The position numbers were made by a program, and so were the translations under genes. From Clostridia bacterium (GTDB lineage: Bacteria > Bacillota > Clostridia > Christensenellales > CAG-138), in the NCBI GenBank assembly GCA_030527115.1, contig JAUNBM010000010.1, positions 1 through 54,492 on the forward strand: 54,492 nucleotides of DNA. The letters are read 5' to 3'. Shown piece by piece: positions 4,655 to 47,075 of this stretch (positions are counted from its first letter, which is position 1; each line of letters begins with the position of its first letter). The notes below the pieces were generated by a model that saw nothing but the letters and a program-made list of their open reading frames with translations, did no database searches and was not told the DNA's origin.

Positions 4655-6511
4655 ATGGGACTATTGAATTTTAACGGAATAGTTAAATACTACGGCAACC
4701 GTTGTCTTTTAAACGAGGTCACCTTTACGGTTGAACGCGGCGACAGGCTCGCGCTCATCGGCCCGAACGGCTCCGGCAAAACCACCCTGCTTCGCATCGC
4801 CAACGGCTTGGAAAGCTGCGATATGGGCGGCGCTTCCTTCTCGCGCGGAACCCGGGTGGGATATCTGATGCAGAATTTTGAGATGCTCGGCGAGGATGAA
4901 AACGCGCTCTATTGGAGCGAGGTCGTAAAGCTGGAGCAAAAGATGAGCCGGCTACAAAAGGCCATGGCGGACGCCGCGGGCAACGAGCTGTCCGAGCTTA
5001 TGGCGCAGTATGAGCGGGTTTGCGCCAAATATGAGAGCATGGACGGCTATGTTGTCGAAAGCCGGCTGAAGGCGACCCTGCTCGGGCTGGGCTTAAAGAG
5101 CGAGGCGCTCACAACTCCGATATCGAAGCTGTCGAGCGGCGAACGAATGCGCGTTGCTCTCGCCCGAATCCTGCTGACCTCCCCCGATCTGCTCATCCTC
5201 GACGAGCCGACGAATCATCTCGACGTCAACGCGACTATGTGGCTTGAGGAATACCTCAAGGGCTTTTCGGGCGGAGTTTTAGTCGTGTCGCACGACCGCT
5301 ACTTCCTCGACCGGGTTGCGACGCGCATCGTTGAGCTGAACAACGGCTCGGTGGTGAGCTTCAAGGGCAATTACAGCTCCTTTTTACAACAAAAGCAGAT
5401 TCGCCTCGACTTTTTGAACAAGGAGAGAGCGCGCCTCGACCGCGAGATCCTCCGCGAAAAGGAGATATATACCACCCTGCGCTCGCACCGCATGATAAAA
5501 GCGGCGCAGTCGAGGGAAAAGGTTATCGCCCGCCTCACCGAGGAGCGCGCTGAACTTAGGCAAAAGAAGCGGCAGGGGCATCTCGGCGCGGTCAATACGG
5601 CTTCGATAAACCTCAAGCCCACCGATCATATAAGCGCCGAAATCGCCGTTTGCGAAAACGCCTCCAAGCGCTTCGGGGACGTCGAGCTTTTTTCCGCCGC
5701 GTCCTTTGTTATCGGAGGCGGCGAACACCTCGCGATAGTCGGGCCTAACGGCTGTGGGAAAACCACCCTGCTTAGAATGCTTCAGGGGCTGGACGCCGAT
5801 TTTACCGGAAAGTGCCGCATCGGAAGCTGGGTTCGCACCGGAGTTTTGGATCAGAACACCGAGTTTGACGATACCTCCCTGTCGATGATTCAGCTCGTAA
5901 CTTTGGAAAAGGAGCAAACGGAGGATTCGGCAAGGCTCGCCTTAAGCCGCGTAGGTTTTTACGGCGACGAGATCTTCAAGCCCATCGGCCTGCTCTCCGG
6001 CGGCGAACGAGTCCGCCTCAAGCTCGCGCTCCTGATGCAACAGAATCCCCAGTGCCTGATCCTCGACGAGCCGACCAACCACCTCGACCTCCCCGCCCGT
6101 GAAGCGGTCGAAAACGCCGTCGCATCGTTTCGGGGCACGGTAATCGCGGTTTCGCACGACCGCTATTTCTTAAACCGCTGTGCCGAGCGCATCCTGGCTT
6201 TTGAGAACAAGCGCCTCGTTTCCTATGAGGGCAACTGGGATGATTATATGAAAGCCACCGCTTTGGATAACGACAAGCCGGCTCCGGCGGGCAAAAAGCG
6301 GGGAGCGGCCAAGCCCGCCGCGCCCGCGGCTTCTGCTCCCGACCCTTCGGTTGAGCTGGAAAAGAGGATTGAAGCACTCGAAGCCAAAAAGGATCAGCTC
6401 GAAGCCGCGCTTAATGAGCTTACCCCGCTCGACACCTATTTGGAGCTTCAATCGCTGTACGATGAAATCGACGCCCTCTATGCCGAATGGCTGAAAATTG
6501 GCAAGCCTTAG
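4655..6511 (+). CDS. ABC-F family ATP-binding protein
   Basis: This 618-residue soluble protein has two ABC ATPase domains and no membrane segments, the hallmark of ABC-F ribosome-associated proteins (translation factors or antibiotic-protection proteins). Both domains are intact: Walker A GPNGSGKTT and GPNGCGKTT, signatures LSSGE and LSGGE, Walker B LILDEPTNHLD twice. A charged linker connects them, and the C-terminus after a Lys/Ala/Pro-rich stretch is a coiled coil, as in the Uup/YdiF branch. Whether it protects against a drug cannot be judged, although it lies between two drug-exporter loci. It starts 6 nt after a TATAAT with no SD. A terminator follows at 6538. Confidence 0.92.
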   Translation: MGLLNFNGIVKYYGNRCLLNEVTFTVERGDRLALIGPNGSGKTTLLRIANGLESCDMGGASFSRGTRVGYLMQNFEMLGEDENALYWSEVVKLEQKMSRLQKAMADAAGNELSELMAQYERVCAKYESMDGYVVESRLKATLLGLGLKSEALTTPISKLSSGERMRVALARILLTSPDLLILDEPTNHLDVNATMWLEEYLKGFSGGVLVVSHDRYFLDRVATRIVELNNGSVVSFKGNYSSFLQQKQIRLDFLNKERARLDREILREKEIYTTLRSHRMIKAAQSREKVIARLTEERAELRQKKRQGHLGAVNTASINLKPTDHISAEIAVCENASKRFGDVELFSAASFVIGGGEHLAIVGPNGCGKTTLLRMLQGLDADFTGKCRIGSWVRTGVLDQNTEFDDTSLSMIQLVTLEKEQTEDSARLALSRVGFYGDEIFKPIGLLSGGERVRLKLALLMQQNPQCLILDEPTNHLDLPAREAVENAVASFRGTVIAVSHDRYFLNRCAERILAFENKRLVSYEGNWDDYMKATALDNDKPAPAGKKRGAAKPAAPAASAPDPSVELEKRIEALEAKKDQLEAALNELTPLDTYLELQSLYDEIDALYAEWLKIGKP

Positions 6512-6537
6512 TTAAAAGCCCTATTGCCCTCCGCTTC

Positions 6538-6564
6538 GGGCAACGGAGGCTTTGCCCTTTTTTT
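6538..6564 (+). terminator. Intrinsic terminator after the ABC-F gene
   Basis: GGGCAA (6538-6543) pairs with TTGCCC (6552-6557), followed by seven T. An alternative stem CCTCCG/CGGAGG overlaps the same bases. Confidence 0.75.
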
Positions 6565-6633
6565 GCAATCCTTCCCTTAGCGCCACGCAATGCAATCGAA
6601 TTTGGGGCTAAACCTCCCGCCTTAAAAAAAGTC

Positions 6634-6662
6634 TTGACTTGCTTCGGGCTTTATGCTAAACT
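6634..6662 (+). promoter_or_regulatory. SigA-like promoter of the ABC exporter operon
   Basis: TTGACT (6634-6639), a 17-nt spacer, and TGC-TAAACT (6654-6662). Predicted start is near 6669, giving a leader of about 250 nt before the first exporter gene at 6924. Confidence 0.75.
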
Positions 6663-6668
6663 GCATCT

Positions 6669-6906
6669 ATTCTGTGGAAAGAATGTATTTGAAATGATCA
6701 AGCTTAGAAATTAGCGCTCAACCGCATCGGTATCGAGTTCTCTACCTTTGGTTGAGAGGCTTTTGCCCAACTCAACCAGACCGCGATTGCTCAACCGCCG
6801 GGTTCGTGCTATATTTCGATTGTATCAGTCGTACACATTCCGACCGCAAAAACCCCCGCTATTGGGGTCTCAATTGGTTGTGATGTCGTACGCACAGCCA
6901 TTTTTT
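6669..6906 (+). promoter_or_regulatory. Attenuator leader of the ABC exporter operon
   Basis: The leader carries CTCAACC at 6717-6723, 6771-6777 and 6790-6796, and its complement GGTTGAG at 6750-6756. TGGTTGAG (6749-6756) can form an 8-bp stem with CTCAACCA (6771-6778), or GGTTGAG can pair with the upstream copy. The last hairpin, TGGTTGTG (6875-6882) with CACAGCCA (6893-6900) followed by six T, is a terminator. Its 5' arm contains GGTTG, complementary to every CAACC copy, so alternative antiterminator pairings exist. Short candidate leader ORFs are present (ATG at 6683, four codons; ATG at 6694, six codons, MIKLRN), but neither has a good SD. The layout resembles the leader-peptide attenuation of bmrCD in Bacillus subtilis. 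Confidence 0.55.
6875..6906 (+). terminator. Leader terminator 18 nt before the first exporter gene
   Basis: 8-bp stem (one G-U pair) with a 10-nt loop, then TTTTTT at 6901-6906. It lies immediately upstream of the SD GAGGTGAT, so genes downstream are expressed only on readthrough. Confidence 0.7.
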
Positions 6907-6923
6907 ATTGTTTGAGGTGATCT

Positions 6924-8645
6924 ATGAGACAGATATTCAGATATATTAAGCCATACAGGAGGAAGCTCGTTCTCGTCGGACTGCTCTATCTGGTTTCAAC
7001 CATGTGCAGTCTGCTCATGCCCTATCTTATGAGCAGTATCGTCAATGACGGCATACAAGCTCATGACATGGGCATGATTATCCGCATCGGCGTTTTGATG
7101 CTCCTCCTCGCCGCTATGGCGCTGGGCTGTGGAATTTGGACTACCAGGGTCAATTCCAAGGTCTCGACGGGCTTTTCGCGGGATCTTAGAAACTCCGTGT
7201 TCCAGAAGATCAACAGCCTGAGCTTTGAGGAATATGCCTCCATCGGCACGTCGAGCCTGCTTACCCGCGCAACGCACGACATATTCAATATTCAGGAAGC
7301 TTCGGTTTCGTTCGTTTACGTTATCGTGACCTTTCCGGTTCTCTTTATCGGCGGCGCCGTTCTCGCCTTTACGAGCGACTGGCTCTTAGCGCTCGTGCTG
7401 GTTGCGCTCGCGCCTCTGGTGTTGCTCATCATCTGGCTCGTAACCCGACGCATGGGCAATCTTTGGGAGAACTCGGATAAATATATTGATATGCAGAACA
7501 AGGTCGTCCGCGAGCGTTTGAGCGGACTCAGGGTCGTCCGCTCGTTCGACAAGGAGCTTCACGAACACAGGCGCATTGAATTTGCAACCAAGGAGATGGC
7601 GAAGAACATCATCAAAGCCAACGTTCTCGCCGGCGTGATCAATCCGCTTTCGCTCTTTTTGCTGAATATCGCGACAATCGCCATGCTGTATATCGGCGCG
7701 GTCAGAATCCAATCGGAGGCGTGGCTGACGGCGGGCGATATAATCGCAACCGTGCAATATGTGGCGCTGATAATGAACGGACTTTTGGTGCTTTCGTGGA
7801 CCTTCGTTTGGCTCCCGCACCTCAAAGTTTGCGTCCGCCGCGTCAGCGAGGTGCTCGCGCTGAAGGGTCAGCCCGCGGAGCAGGTGAGCGGAGAGGTTCT
7901 AAGCGGCGAAATTAAGCTCGAAAACGTCAGCTTCTCCTATGGCGATTCCGAACAGCCGGTCTTGCAAAACATAGATATCGACATAAAGAATGGGGAGATC
8001 GTATCCATCATCGGCGGAACCGGCAGCGGCAAAACCACCGTGATGAAGCTGTTAATGGACTTTTATGCCCCGACCGGAGGAAGGATTTCCATGGGCGGCA
8101 GGGATTACTCAACCCTTTCCCGCGAGACCGTGCGCGACAATATCGCCATCGCCCTTCAAAAGAGCATGATATTCGAGGGCACGATTGAGGAGAACATCAA
8201 GATGGGCAAAAAGGACGCCTCGCCCGACGAGCTGGAGCGCGTAGCCGAAATTGCCCAGATAAGCGATTTCATCCACTCGCAGGAGAACGGCTATTCCTAT
8301 AAGCTCGCCCAAGCCGGGGCGAACATCTCCGGCGGTCAGAAGCAACGCTTCAATATCGCCCGAACGATAATCAAGCCCGCTTCGGTCTATATCTTTGACG
8401 ACAGCTTTTCCGCCCTCGACTACCTCACGGAAAGCAAACTGCGCAAGGAGCTTAACCGTTATTTGAAGGGCAAGACCCAGATAATCGTGACCCAGCGCGC
8501 CGCAACCGCCATGCGCTGTGACAAGGTTTATGTTATGGACAGGGGAAGGATTGTCGGCGTGGGCACGCACGAGGAGCTTTTGTCCTCCTGCCCGATCTAC
8601 AAGGAGATCTATGATTCCCAGCTGGGAGGTGATTTGAATGCCTAA
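6924..8645 (+). CDS. Heterodimeric multidrug ABC exporter, degenerate-site half (BmrC-like)
   Basis: This 573-residue half-transporter has six membrane segments (about 1-300) fused to an ATPase domain. Walker A is GGTGSGKTT (Lys370) and the signature is a near-canonical ISGGQ. The catalytic Glu after Walker B is Asp (FDD, Asp493) and the switch His is Gln (Gln524). These are the replacements expected in the non-hydrolysing nucleotide site of asymmetric exporters such as BmrCD and TM287/288. It overlaps the next gene by 8 nt, so the two are co-translated partners. The SD GAGGTGAT precedes the ATG. The likely role is drug or lipid export. Confidence 0.92.
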   Translation: MRQIFRYIKPYRRKLVLVGLLYLVSTMCSLLMPYLMSSIVNDGIQAHDMGMIIRIGVLMLLLAAMALGCGIWTTRVNSKVSTGFSRDLRNSVFQKINSLSFEEYASIGTSSLLTRATHDIFNIQEASVSFVYVIVTFPVLFIGGAVLAFTSDWLLALVLVALAPLVLLIIWLVTRRMGNLWENSDKYIDMQNKVVRERLSGLRVVRSFDKELHEHRRIEFATKEMAKNIIKANVLAGVINPLSLFLLNIATIAMLYIGAVRIQSEAWLTAGDIIATVQYVALIMNGLLVLSWTFVWLPHLKVCVRRVSEVLALKGQPAEQVSGEVLSGEIKLENVSFSYGDSEQPVLQNIDIDIKNGEIVSIIGGTGSGKTTVMKLLMDFYAPTGGRISMGGRDYSTLSRETVRDNIAIALQKSMIFEGTIEENIKMGKKDASPDELERVAEIAQISDFIHSQENGYSYKLAQAGANISGGQKQRFNIARTIIKPASVYIFDDSFSALDYLTESKLRKELNRYLKGKTQIIVTQRAATAMRCDKVYVMDRGRIVGVGTHEELLSSCPIYKEIYDSQLGGDLNA

Positions 8646-10413
8646 ACAGGAATACCGGCTCAGTAACCGCCATGCTCTTAAAAGGATATTGAGCGACGCC
8701 CGCCCCATTGCGGGCTGGCTCGCCGTCGGCGCGCTCATATCCCTTTTGACCGTTGCGCTTTCGCTCATCGGCCCGGAGATTCTCGGGCGTGTTACCGACC
8801 TTATCTACGACTACTGGGCGGGAGAAATCCCCGCCATACCCGCAGGAGCGCTTTCAAACAACTGCCTGTTGCTCGTTGGCGTTTACGGAGCCTCGGCGGT
8901 CTGCGGCCTCGCCTCGATGTTCCTGCTGAACAACGTGGTTTCCCGCCATTTTACCTGCACTCTCAGAATCCGCATCAGCGACAAGATTCGCAGAGTCCCC
9001 GTAAAATATGTGGATAACACCCCTACCGGCGAGATTATCTCCCGCATGACCGACGACGTTTCGGTGCTGGGCAATACGGTGCATAATTTCCTCGATATTA
9101 TTATTCAGGGAATAATCAAACTCGTGGGGATAACCGCAATAATCTTCGTTATGCAACCCATGATGGCGGCGATGGTTATCGTTTTCGTTCCGCTCTCGCT
9201 GGTCTTGTCCGCTAAGATATCCCAGCTCAGCATGAAGCATTTTATGTCGGCGCGGGAAACCAACGGCAAGATATATGCGCTTGCCGAGGAGGACTTTACC
9301 GGGTTCGATACCATAAAGGCGTTTAACCTCGAGGAAAGGCAGAAGAAGGAATACGCCGCCCTCGTCGATAAGAGCGTTGAAAAGCTCCAAAAGGGCTACT
9401 TCCTTTCCGGAGTCGTCCAGCCCATCGTCACCCTCACCAACAACGCGGCCTATATTGCTATCTGCATTATCGGCGGTTTGTTCGCCATCCGGGGCACAGT
9501 GAGCGTCGGTGAGGTCGTCGCCTTCGTCCTCTATGCAAAGCTCTTTGCCGGGCCCTTGGAGAGCATCGCCAACGGGCTTTCCATGATGCAGAACACCTTT
9601 GCATCGGCAAACCGGGTTTATGAGCTGATGGACGAGGAGGAGATGGAGGAAAAGCCTTCGAGCGACGTATCCGAATTGGAGGGCAACATCCGCTTCGAGC
9701 ATGTGAACTTCTCCTACAATCCCGATCAGCCGCTGATTACCGATCTCAATATGGACGTAAAAGCCGGCCAGAAGGTTGCGATTGTCGGCCCGACCGGCGG
9801 CGGTAAGACTACGATAGTGAACCTCCTGATGCGCTTTTACGATGTGGATTCGGGCAGAATCCTGATCGACGGCCGCGATACTATGGATATGAGCCACAGC
9901 GATCTCCGCTCGCTCTTTTCAATGGTTTTGCAGGATACCTGGCTGTACTCCGGCACCATATACGACAATATCGCCTATGGCAAGGAGAACGCCACCCGCG
10001 AGGAGGTTATGGAAGCGGCGCGCCAGGCGCATATCGACTTCTTCATCGACACCCTGCCCGACGGCTATGATACGGTTATCAATGAGGAATCGACCAACAT
10101 AAGCAGCGGGCAAAAACAGCTCCTCACCATCGCAAGAGCCTATCTTTCCGACCGCAAGATGCTCATTCTGGACGAGGCGACCTCCAACGTCGACACCCGA
10201 ACCGAGATCCTGATTCAAAAGACGATGGATGAGCTTATGCGCGGAAGAACGAGCTTCGTTATAGCGCACCGGCTGTCCACGATAGTCGACGCCGATGTGA
10301 TTCTCGTATTGGATAACGGCCGCGTCGTCGAACAGGGCACGCATGAGGAACTCTTAGCAAAGCGCGGCTTCTATGCCGAAATCTACAACAGCCAGTATGA
10401 GCTGTTGCACTAA
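8638..10413 (+). CDS. Heterodimeric multidrug ABC exporter, catalytic half (BmrD-like)
   Basis: This 591-residue partner of the preceding gene has the same membrane-ATPase layout. Its Walker A is GPTGGGKTT, Walker B LILDE with catalytic Glu513, and switch His544 is present. Its own signature is altered to ISSGQ (488-492). Pairing the two halves gives one complete ATP site (this Walker A/B plus the partner's ISGGQ) and one degenerate site (partner's Asp/Gln plus ISSGQ). The SD GGAGGTGATTTGA lies inside the end of the upstream gene. A bidirectional terminator follows. Confidence 0.92.
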   Translation: MPKQEYRLSNRHALKRILSDARPIAGWLAVGALISLLTVALSLIGPEILGRVTDLIYDYWAGEIPAIPAGALSNNCLLLVGVYGASAVCGLASMFLLNNVVSRHFTCTLRIRISDKIRRVPVKYVDNTPTGEIISRMTDDVSVLGNTVHNFLDIIIQGIIKLVGITAIIFVMQPMMAAMVIVFVPLSLVLSAKISQLSMKHFMSARETNGKIYALAEEDFTGFDTIKAFNLEERQKKEYAALVDKSVEKLQKGYFLSGVVQPIVTLTNNAAYIAICIIGGLFAIRGTVSVGEVVAFVLYAKLFAGPLESIANGLSMMQNTFASANRVYELMDEEEMEEKPSSDVSELEGNIRFEHVNFSYNPDQPLITDLNMDVKAGQKVAIVGPTGGGKTTIVNLLMRFYDVDSGRILIDGRDTMDMSHSDLRSLFSMVLQDTWLYSGTIYDNIAYGKENATREEVMEAARQAHIDFFIDTLPDGYDTVINEESTNISSGQKQLLTIARAYLSDRKMLILDEATSNVDTRTEILIQKTMDELMRGRTSFVIAHRLSTIVDADVILVLDNGRVVEQGTHEELLAKRGFYAEIYNSQYELLH

Positions 10414-45403: not shown

Positions 45404-45684
45404 TAATTTAATAAAAACCGTTGAATCAGAGTAGTAAGTCCTGTTGAGATGTTCCAAGAGAGCCGCCGAAGCTGGGAGTGCGACAGCATCCGCCTGACTG
45501 AATGGACTGACGAGGGCGATTTCGAAAGCCGGAGCCGTAGGAATCGACGGGGATTCGACCCGTTATCAGACGAGCGCATATGTTGGTATGCGATTGAGCC
45601 GGGCTGTTTTTGACAGCCAATTGGGGTGGCACCGCAGGAGATTTGCTCTTGTCCCTATTTTGGGGACAGGAGTTTTTTATTTTA
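45404..45684 (+). ncRNA. T-box riboswitch, predicted tRNA-Trp specific
   Basis: The leader has the T-box layout: a long Stem I, a conserved antiterminator segment GGGGTGGCACCGC (45623-45635) with the tRNA 3'-end binding bulge TGGC (45627-45630), and a final terminator. The Stem I specifier region reads GAATGGACT with TGG (45503-45505) in the expected position, the Trp codon. The C in the TGGC bulge would pair with a discriminator G, as in bacterial tRNA-Trp. Uncharged tRNA-Trp should allow readthrough into the trpB2 gene. Confidence 0.88.
45646..45684 (+). terminator. T-box terminator
   Basis: CTCTTGTCCC (45646-45655) pairs with GGGACAGGAG (45663-45672), followed by six T plus a T-rich run. 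It precedes SD GGAGG at 45689. Confidence 0.85.
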
Positions 45685-45701
45685 TTATGGAGGCGACGAC
45701 T

Positions 45702-47075
45702 ATGAAACGCAGGATACCTTACAGAACCTTTTTAAAACCGGAACAGCTTCCGAAATGCTGGTATAACATCAAAGCGGATATGAAGGAACTTCCCCCTCCG
45801 CTGATCAATCCCGCCACCATGCGCCCCGTCTCGCTTGATGAACTCAGCTCCATCTTTGCCGACGAGCTGGCGCGCCAGGAGCTGAATTGCACCGACAGGT
45901 TTATCGAGATTCCAAACGACATTTTGGAATACTACGAAACCTACCGCCCCTCCCCGCTGATTCGAGCCTACAATCTGGAACGGCGGTTGCAAACCCCGGC
46001 GCGTATCTACTATAAATTTGAAGGCGGCAACACCTCCGGTAGCCACAAGCTGAACTCAGCCGTCGCTCAAGCCTACTATGCCAAGCGTCAGGGCTTGAGT
46101 TCGCTAACGACCGAAACCGGCGCGGGTCAATGGGGAACCGCGCTTGCAATGGCTTGCGCCCACTTCAACCTGCCGCTCACCGTCTATATGGTTAAAATCA
46201 GCGCCCTTCAAAAGCCCCACCGAAAGGCGGTAATCGAATCCTTCGGCGGAAAGGTGATACCCAGTCCCAGCACGACTACGGCTGTCGGCCGCAAAATCCT
46301 GTCCGCCGACCCGAACTCGGGTGGGAGCCTCGGTTGCGCCATATCGGAAGCGGTGGAAACCGCCGCAAACACGCCGAACTGCCGCTATGTCCTCGGCTCG
46401 GTATTGGATCAGGTGCTGTTGCACCAGTCCGTTATAGGTTTGGAGGCCAAAGCCGCTATGGACTCGCTCGACGAATACCCCGATATCATAATCGGCTGTG
46501 CCGGAGGCGGCTCCAATCTCGGCGGGCTGATATGCGCCTACATGGGCGATAAGCTCAACAAAAGGGCTCATCCCCATTTCATTGCGGTTGAGCCGGATTC
46601 CTGTCCCTCCCTCACCCGCGGTCAATATGCCTATGACTTTTGCGACGCCGGAAGGATAACCCCCTTAGCGCGGATGTATACCCTCGGAAGCGGCTTTGTG
46701 CCGTCCGGCATCCATGCCGGCGGCCTGCGCTACCACGGAATGTCCCCGATCATAAGCAAGCTTTATCATGACGGTCATATAGACGAAGCCCGCGCCGTCT
46801 CCCAAACCTCCGTATTCGACGCGGCGATGGAGTTTTCCACGGCGGAGGGCATTTTGCCCGCGCCTGAGTCCGCTCACGCAATCAAGGTAGCCATAGACGA
46901 GGCAAAAAAATGCCGCGAAAGCGGCGAGCGCAGGGTGATTCTGTTCAACTTAACCGGAACCGGCTATTTCGATATGAGCGCATATATTCAATACCATGCC
47001 AAAGAGATGACAAACCATTCGCCGTCAGACGAGGAGCTTTGCGCAGGGCTCAAATCCCTGCCAAAGCTGTCGTGA
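45702..47075 (+). CDS. trpB: TrpB2-type tryptophan synthase beta chain
   Basis: The 457-residue PLP enzyme is longer than TrpB1 (about 400) and has TrpB2 features: the N-terminal extension with LPKCWYNIKADM, the PLP-Lys motif GGNTSGSHKLN, ETGAGQWGTA, and the phosphate-binding GCAGGGSNLGG. It condenses indole and serine to tryptophan. No trpA or other trp gene is adjacent, so it may serve indole salvage. The ATG at 45702 follows GGAGG (45689-45693). Its expression is tied to the tRNA-Trp T-box directly upstream. Confidence 0.93.
   Translation: MKRRIPYRTFLKPEQLPKCWYNIKADMKELPPPLINPATMRPVSLDELSSIFADELARQELNCTDRFIEIPNDILEYYETYRPSPLIRAYNLERRLQTPARIYYKFEGGNTSGSHKLNSAVAQAYYAKRQGLSSLTTETGAGQWGTALAMACAHFNLPLTVYMVKISALQKPHRKAVIESFGGKVIPSPSTTTAVGRKILSADPNSGGSLGCAISEAVETAANTPNCRYVLGSVLDQVLLHQSVIGLEAKAAMDSLDEYPDIIIGCAGGGSNLGGLICAYMGDKLNKRAHPHFIAVEPDSCPSLTRGQYAYDFCDAGRITPLARMYTLGSGFVPSGIHAGGLRYHGMSPIISKLYHDGHIDEARAVSQTSVFDAAMEFSTAEGILPAPESAHAIKVAIDEAKKCRESGERRVILFNLTGTGYFDMSAYIQYHAKEMTNHSPSDEELCAGLKSLPKLS

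Follow-up and report, generated by a model that had tools for sequence, protein, structure and literature searches.

In Bacillus subtilis the bmrBCD operon, which encodes a heterodimeric ABC exporter, is controlled by ribosome-mediated transcription attenuation through BmrB, a leader peptide of 53 amino acids whose coding region contains the terminator (PMC4191407). In Streptococcus, mef(E)/mel (msr(D)), which encodes an MFS pump and an ABC-F protein, is subject to macrolide-responsive transcription attenuation, and its leader contains inverted repeats, an intrinsic terminator and the 8-residue peptide MTASMRLR (PMC4335068). The end of this peptide conforms to Lys/Arg-X-Lys/Arg (+X+), the arrest motif for ketolides and several macrolides, in which X occupies the P site and the basic residue after it is unable to react (PMC8298421). 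The same motif is present as KLR in the msr(C) leader, MTASMKLRF... (PMC4335068), and as RLR in ErmDL, the leader peptide of the 23S rRNA methyltransferase genes ermD/ermK, where arrest occurs with Leu in the P site (PMC8298421). In Listeria, a 14-residue RLR peptide lies within the hflXr/rli80 transcription attenuator, which has terminator and antiterminator alternatives and controls a ribosome-splitting factor (PMC6310831). Finally, the methyltransferase gene tlrB (yxjB) of B. subtilis has a 9-residue leader peptide with RYR; here the stalled ribosome blocks the base of the leader terminator directly, no antiterminator was found, and translational control and NusG pausing act in addition (PMC6851288). 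Some +X+ peptides do not arrest (PMC6851288).

The stretch of DNA that we analysed, 54,492 nucleotides in length and referred to below as the window, comes from an uncultured Clostridia lineage with a 1.8-Mb genome. In the window a leader of ~255 nt separates an ABC-F gene (4655-6511) from a heterodimeric ABC exporter operon (6924-8645 and 8638-10413). An initial annotation had proposed a switch-like attenuator in this position, possibly analogous to the ribosome-mediated attenuation of bmrCD with unrelated sequence, and this proposal is now backed by a leader ORF, a set of competing RNA strands and two orthologous leaders. We consider it probable that the exporter is antiterminated by drug-induced ribosome stalling, through a ribosome-mediated transcription attenuator in which a macrolide or ketolide arrests the ribosome at a Lys-Leu-Arg motif. 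The features of the locus are as follows.

6634 to 6662, + strand: sigma-70-type promoter TTGACT-17-TAAACT from a consensus scan, transcription start expected near 6669
6673 to 6701, + strand: strand 1 (anti-antiterminator), Shine-Dalgarno sequence and first codons, pairing with strand 2 in the fold (duplex -15.7 kcal/mol)
6677 to 6681, + strand: Shine-Dalgarno sequence GAAAG of the leader ORF, aligned spacing of 8 to the start codon
6694 to 6714, + strand: leader ORF ATGATCAAGCTTAGAAATTAG, peptide MIKLRN with the Lys-Leu-Arg arrest motif
6747 to 6780, + strand: central hairpin, GGTTGAG 6750-6756 paired with CTCAACC copy 2 6771-6777, pair probabilities 0.996-1.0
6820 to 6845, + strand: strand 2 (antiterminator strand), with CGTACACATTCCGACC at 6830-6845, pairing with strand 1 or the terminator 5' arm
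6853 to 6867, + strand: small spacer hairpin between strands 2 and 3, from the fold of a truncated transcript
6875 to 6906, + strand: intrinsic terminator, stem 6875-6900 and T6 at 6901-6906, mean pair probability 0.95 without a ribosome
6876 to 6892, + strand: strand 3, terminator 5' arm GGTTGTGATGTCGTACG, pairing with strand 2 or strand 4
6914 to 6919, + strand: Shine-Dalgarno sequence GAGGTG of the exporter gene, from the sequence
6924 to 8645, + strand: ABC exporter subunit 1, 573 aa, degenerate site with Walker B YIFDDSFSALD
8638 to 10413, + strand: ABC exporter subunit 2, 591 aa, with canonical LILDEATSNVD

The control that we propose is of a known kind, but its host, an uncultured Clostridia bacterium, and its pump would be new. 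As in bmrBCD, a heterodimeric ABC exporter follows a ribosome-mediated transcription attenuator, computed in our case, but MIKLRN has only 6 residues, the terminator lies 160 nt 3' of the leader ORF, and the exporter is closer to TM287/288. With mef(E)/mel the leader shares a short +X+ peptide, inverted repeats, an intrinsic terminator and transcription attenuation of drug efflux, and we infer a macrolide response as well; the pump is of another class, however, and neither the MTASM start nor the remaining sequence is in common. The KLR of MIKLRN is the same as that of msr(C). The hflXr/rli80 leader is similar in mechanism and in its short +X+ ORF and differs in ORF length and target, whereas tlrB resembles the window in its +X+ leader and leader terminator, and not in the way the terminator is blocked. 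ErmDL has the motif in a longer peptide. If our proposal is right, macrolide-type leader-peptide attenuation would also operate on a heterodimeric ABC exporter, within an uncultured family of Clostridia, and the leader would hint at the drug class to which the pump responds.

The exporter had also been described as a BmrCD-type pair, which holds for the general class only. Both pairs are heterodimeric type IV exporters, but the best solved relative of subunit 1 is TM287 (3qf4_A, E 1.3e-118), and subunit 2, the gene of which overlaps that of subunit 1 by 8 nt, matches 8wcw_B and TM288 and, more distantly and with a lower score, BmrD/YheH (7m33_D). TM287/288 (3qf4) and 8wcw are thus the closer relatives of the pair by sequence, and BmrCD/YheH (7m33) the more distant one. 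The ABC-F protein directly upstream (4655-6511) scores above the NCBIfam cut-off as a ribosomal protection-like ABC-F (NF000355, 418.8 vs 380). At another exporter locus, L023, the ABC-F gene is not adjacent to the exporter, which instead has a large opposite-strand ORF on its upstream side.

The 5' part of the leader, TGTGGAAAGAATGTATTTGAAATGATCAAGC, holds the Shine-Dalgarno sequence and the six-codon ORF (ATG ATC AAG CTT AGA AAT TAG); no other short ORF (4-32 aa) with a Shine-Dalgarno sequence in front of it occurs within the 420 nt that precede the exporter. Neither this segment (6677-6714) nor the true competitor of the terminator (6830-6845) featured in the initial annotation. The terminator is absent from the consensus-scan list because its stem is interrupted. 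The leader fold, at -80 kcal/mol against a shuffle mean of -58 (z -4.98, 0/200 shuffles), is strongly non-random, and the leader lies outside every curated RNA family, as no credible Rfam match was found in 6500-6960 at the gathering threshold or with E up to 10. The first leader ATG, at 6683, opens a tiny frame, ATG TAT TTG AAA TGA (MYLK, 6683-6694), that overlaps the start of the leader ORF by ATGA. A counterpart, ATG TAT TTC TAA (MYF), is present in the orthologous leader L004, so that the frame is conserved, without a properly spaced Shine-Dalgarno sequence. We regard this ATG as the less likely leader start, as the Shine-Dalgarno sequence would abut it and L005, the second orthologous leader, has no counterpart.

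In the mechanism we propose, RNA polymerase would start near 6669 and transcribe the short leader ORF, which would be translated as MIKLRN. Once ribosomes have passed and left, the Shine-Dalgarno sequence and ORF of strand 1 would form a long rod with strand 2; with strand 2 held in this way, strand 3 would be free for strand 4, and the resulting terminator would halt transcription before the exporter. A macrolide or ketolide would instead arrest the ribosome at the Lys-Leu-Arg motif and leave strand 1 covered. Strand 2 would then pair with strand 3, no terminator would form, and the exporter pair would be transcribed and presumably remove the drug.

Folding of both states predicts that terminator formation depends on the occupancy of the leader ORF, via alternative pairing among strands 1, 2 and 3. 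The strand 2:3 duplex (-16.0 kcal/mol) competes with the 1:2 duplex of -15.7 kcal/mol. A mask from the Shine-Dalgarno sequence to 15 nt past the Leu codon lowered the terminator probability from 0.95 to 0.01, a drop reached by none of 200 shuffles of the middle segment. When a mask was slid along the window leader, the terminator was lowered only over strand 1 and its partner strand. With the motif placed in the P site the result varied with the upstream edge of the footprint, the terminator probability being 0.44-0.90 for an edge of 12-15 nt and 0.00-0.03 for an edge of at least 18 nt. The energy of the antiterminator duplex alone is unexceptional against shuffles in the window (170/1000) and likewise in L004. 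When the transcript was truncated ahead of strand 4, strands 2 and 3 paired even without a ribosome; kinetics therefore matter, and equilibrium folding, which takes no account of transcription speed, is a crude guide.

Orthologues were sought in 103 genomes of the family, and three leaders, two of them from one genus, were compared: that of the window, L004 (G002, same genus, 76% protein identity) and L005 (G008, another genus of the family, 65%). The attenuator layout recurs in both orthologues, each having a promoter, a Shine-Dalgarno sequence, a short ORF, a long fold and a terminator directly before the exporter, which supports an attenuator. The L004 promoter, TTGACT-17-TATACT, lies at the same distance as that of the window, -290 from the start codon; the leader ORF is at -230 from the exporter start in both, and the alignment is almost gapless. 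The Shine-Dalgarno sequences of the orthologous ORFs are AAGGA (spacing 9) in L004 and GAAAGGA (spacing 8) in L005. The short ORF of L004 is again the only Shine-Dalgarno-preceded one in 420 nt, and that of L005 is the ORF with the longest Shine-Dalgarno match. Between the window and L004 the kept blocks are the promoter, the Shine-Dalgarno/start block TTCTGTGGAARGAATGTATTT..AATG, parts of the central hairpin, GATNGCTCAACCG, TGCTAYAYT, GGTTGTGATG of the terminator 5' arm, TTGGTTGTGATG and the T run. L004 has a hairpin with a different inner stem at the position of the central hairpin, and another hairpin where the window has its small spacer hairpin. When 41 relatives were searched with the leader DNA, nothing was recovered beyond the window and, in G033, 30 matching nt close to the start codon; TGTGGAARGAATGTATTT, scanned for in the 103 family genomes, was exact only at the two exporter loci and is therefore not a multi-copy element.

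With masks on the ORF the terminator probability fell from 0.95 to 0.01 in the window, from 0.94 to 0.13 in L004 and from 0.91 to 0.15 in L005, and the same drop was reached by 0/200, 6/200 and 0/200 middle-segment shuffles, respectively. By this measure the window and L005 have a strong computed switch; that of L004 is weaker and requires a footprint back to the Shine-Dalgarno sequence (terminator 0.6-0.9 with a 15-nt upstream edge). These figures also speak against a GC-rich leader that is unregulated and has a partial, constitutive terminator, which we regard as improbable: the coordinated behaviour of strands 1, 2 and 3 goes beyond all shuffles in two of the three leaders, and the fold has a z of -5.

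The leader peptides of the window, L004 and L005 are MIKLRN, MRVRLFS and MIRIRI, which have the [KR]X[KR] motif (KLR, RVR and RIR) and nothing else in common; the codons diverged between the window and L004 while the motif was retained. A +X+ motif in an ORF of 6-7 codons is not rare. The background for ORFs of 6-7 aa is 8% in the window, 12% for Shine-Dalgarno-preceded ORFs across all loci and up to 20% in L004 and L005 together, and the chance of three out of three is therefore ~0.001 to 0.01, uncorrected for choice. If our proposal is right, very short +X+ leaders could be discovered by comparing orthologous leaders that otherwise share no sequence.

The same attenuator may instead respond in general whenever translation is slowed or blocked, by any inhibitor or by a shortage of charged Arg or Lys tRNA, with the +X+ motif present by chance. 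We judge this to be unlikely, yet it is the main rival, because in the model occupancy of the first codons alone suffices. A ribosome-sized mask on codons 1-3 of the window leader ORF abolished the predicted terminator, as did one at the motif (0.00-0.14), and an initiating ribosome reduced it to 0.02, 0.19 and 0.42 in the three leaders. The motif background of 8-20% per ORF fits this explanation too, as does BmrB, which answers several 50S drugs with no such motif needed (PMC4191407). Against it stands the retention of the motif in three otherwise different peptides.

The CTCAACC/GGTTGAG repeats of the leader require a separate explanation. They and the terminator are present as first reported, with CTCAACC at 6717, 6771 and 6790, GGTTGAG at 6750, and GGTTG at 6876 within the hairpin 6875-6900 that precedes T6. 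Of 5000 dinucleotide shuffles of 6669-6923, 30 contained a 7-mer family with at least four copies, both strands counted, and the repeats are therefore mildly unusual. The switch built on them in the initial annotation is not supported by the computed folds. Its hairpins were to be mutually exclusive, but GGTTGAG pairs with copy 2 (P 0.996-1.0) and not with copies 1 and 3 (P 0.000), and each CAACC was to compete for the terminator GGTTG, where only 5 bp are on offer and P is 0.000 for every copy. We rejected a repeat-based switch on these probabilities; the central hairpin is the structural middle of the long rod and not a switch.

CAACC and GGTTG also occur at 13 of the 16 loci that encode orthologous exporters (57% identity) in a sister genus. 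There CAACC-8-GGTTG stands shortly before a -10-like TAnnnT near the ATG, in most cases with a further, third GGTTG 13 nt ahead of it, and no leader terminator was seen at these loci. The repeats are therefore not tied to the attenuator. In L004 the CAACC/GGTTG order is the same, the spacings are 23 and 8 nt, and the last GGTTG is followed at 29 nt by a -10-like TACACT; a pattern scan of ten genomes gave exact matches only in front of this exporter. On this pattern the repeats probably have a role other than attenuation, seem to predate the attenuator and to be independent of it, and are a possible DNA operator; in the window they additionally make up the middle of the RNA rod. In a rival reading, CTCAACC/GGTTGAG would be the half-sites of a protein regulator acting on a second promoter at or near 6790-6815, with the terminator incidental. 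The shared order before a -10-like box, in the sister genus and in L004, would suit such an operator, as would the change in spacing from 13 to 23 nt, which is one helical turn, and the conservation of GATNGCTCAACCG and TGCTAYAYT between the window and L004. However, the window has lost the third half-site, and the -35 hexamer, TTGCTC, is a poor one; TGCTAYAYT might just as well be conserved to pair with the TTAGC of the ORF in the RNA, and the leader ORF, fold and terminator are left unexplained. We find it quite unlikely that an operator accounts for the leader.

It is conceivable, at a slightly lower probability again, that there are two layers of control. A protein regulator would act on CAACC/GGTTG at the internal promoter, and transcripts from it, which lack strand 1, would escape the attenuator by default, while those from promoter 1 would answer ribosome arrest; the sister genus would have kept only the DNA layer, driving a leaderless exporter mRNA. 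At L006-L020 and L022 a canonical promoter lies 110-180 nt upstream of the exporter gene, and the last 65 nt before the ATG contain the CAACC/GGTTG dyad followed by TAnnnT ~12 nt before the ATG, without a Shine-Dalgarno sequence. The sister-genus dyad and TAnnnT are possibly a second promoter yielding leaderless mRNA.

A ligand-binding riboswitch or protein-binding RNA governing the terminator would fit the very stable leader and its alternative pairings but is highly improbable, given that no credible Rfam family was matched, that there is no conserved core, since L005 has the same layout and not the same sequence, and that a translated ORF would account for the conserved part.

Ribosome arrest within the leader ORF remains our preferred explanation for the window leader. 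In another family of the order (f19, L048-L057), a strong Shine-Dalgarno sequence, an ORF of 21-30 aa (for example MTKQRNNYFESR..., MTNKRIQNIK...) and a terminator lie 150-320 nt upstream of the exporter, and ORF segments such as CGAAAGTCGC are complementary to the terminator arm GCGCTTTCG. This is apparently another, unrelated leader-peptide attenuator. The equilibrium model gave no switching in these leaders except L050, and they are therefore not used as support. The window itself contains a further leader, a T-box (RF00230, 100.5 bits) at 45412-45659, directly 5' of an ORF (45588-47075) for an apparent TrpB-like tryptophan synthase beta chain.
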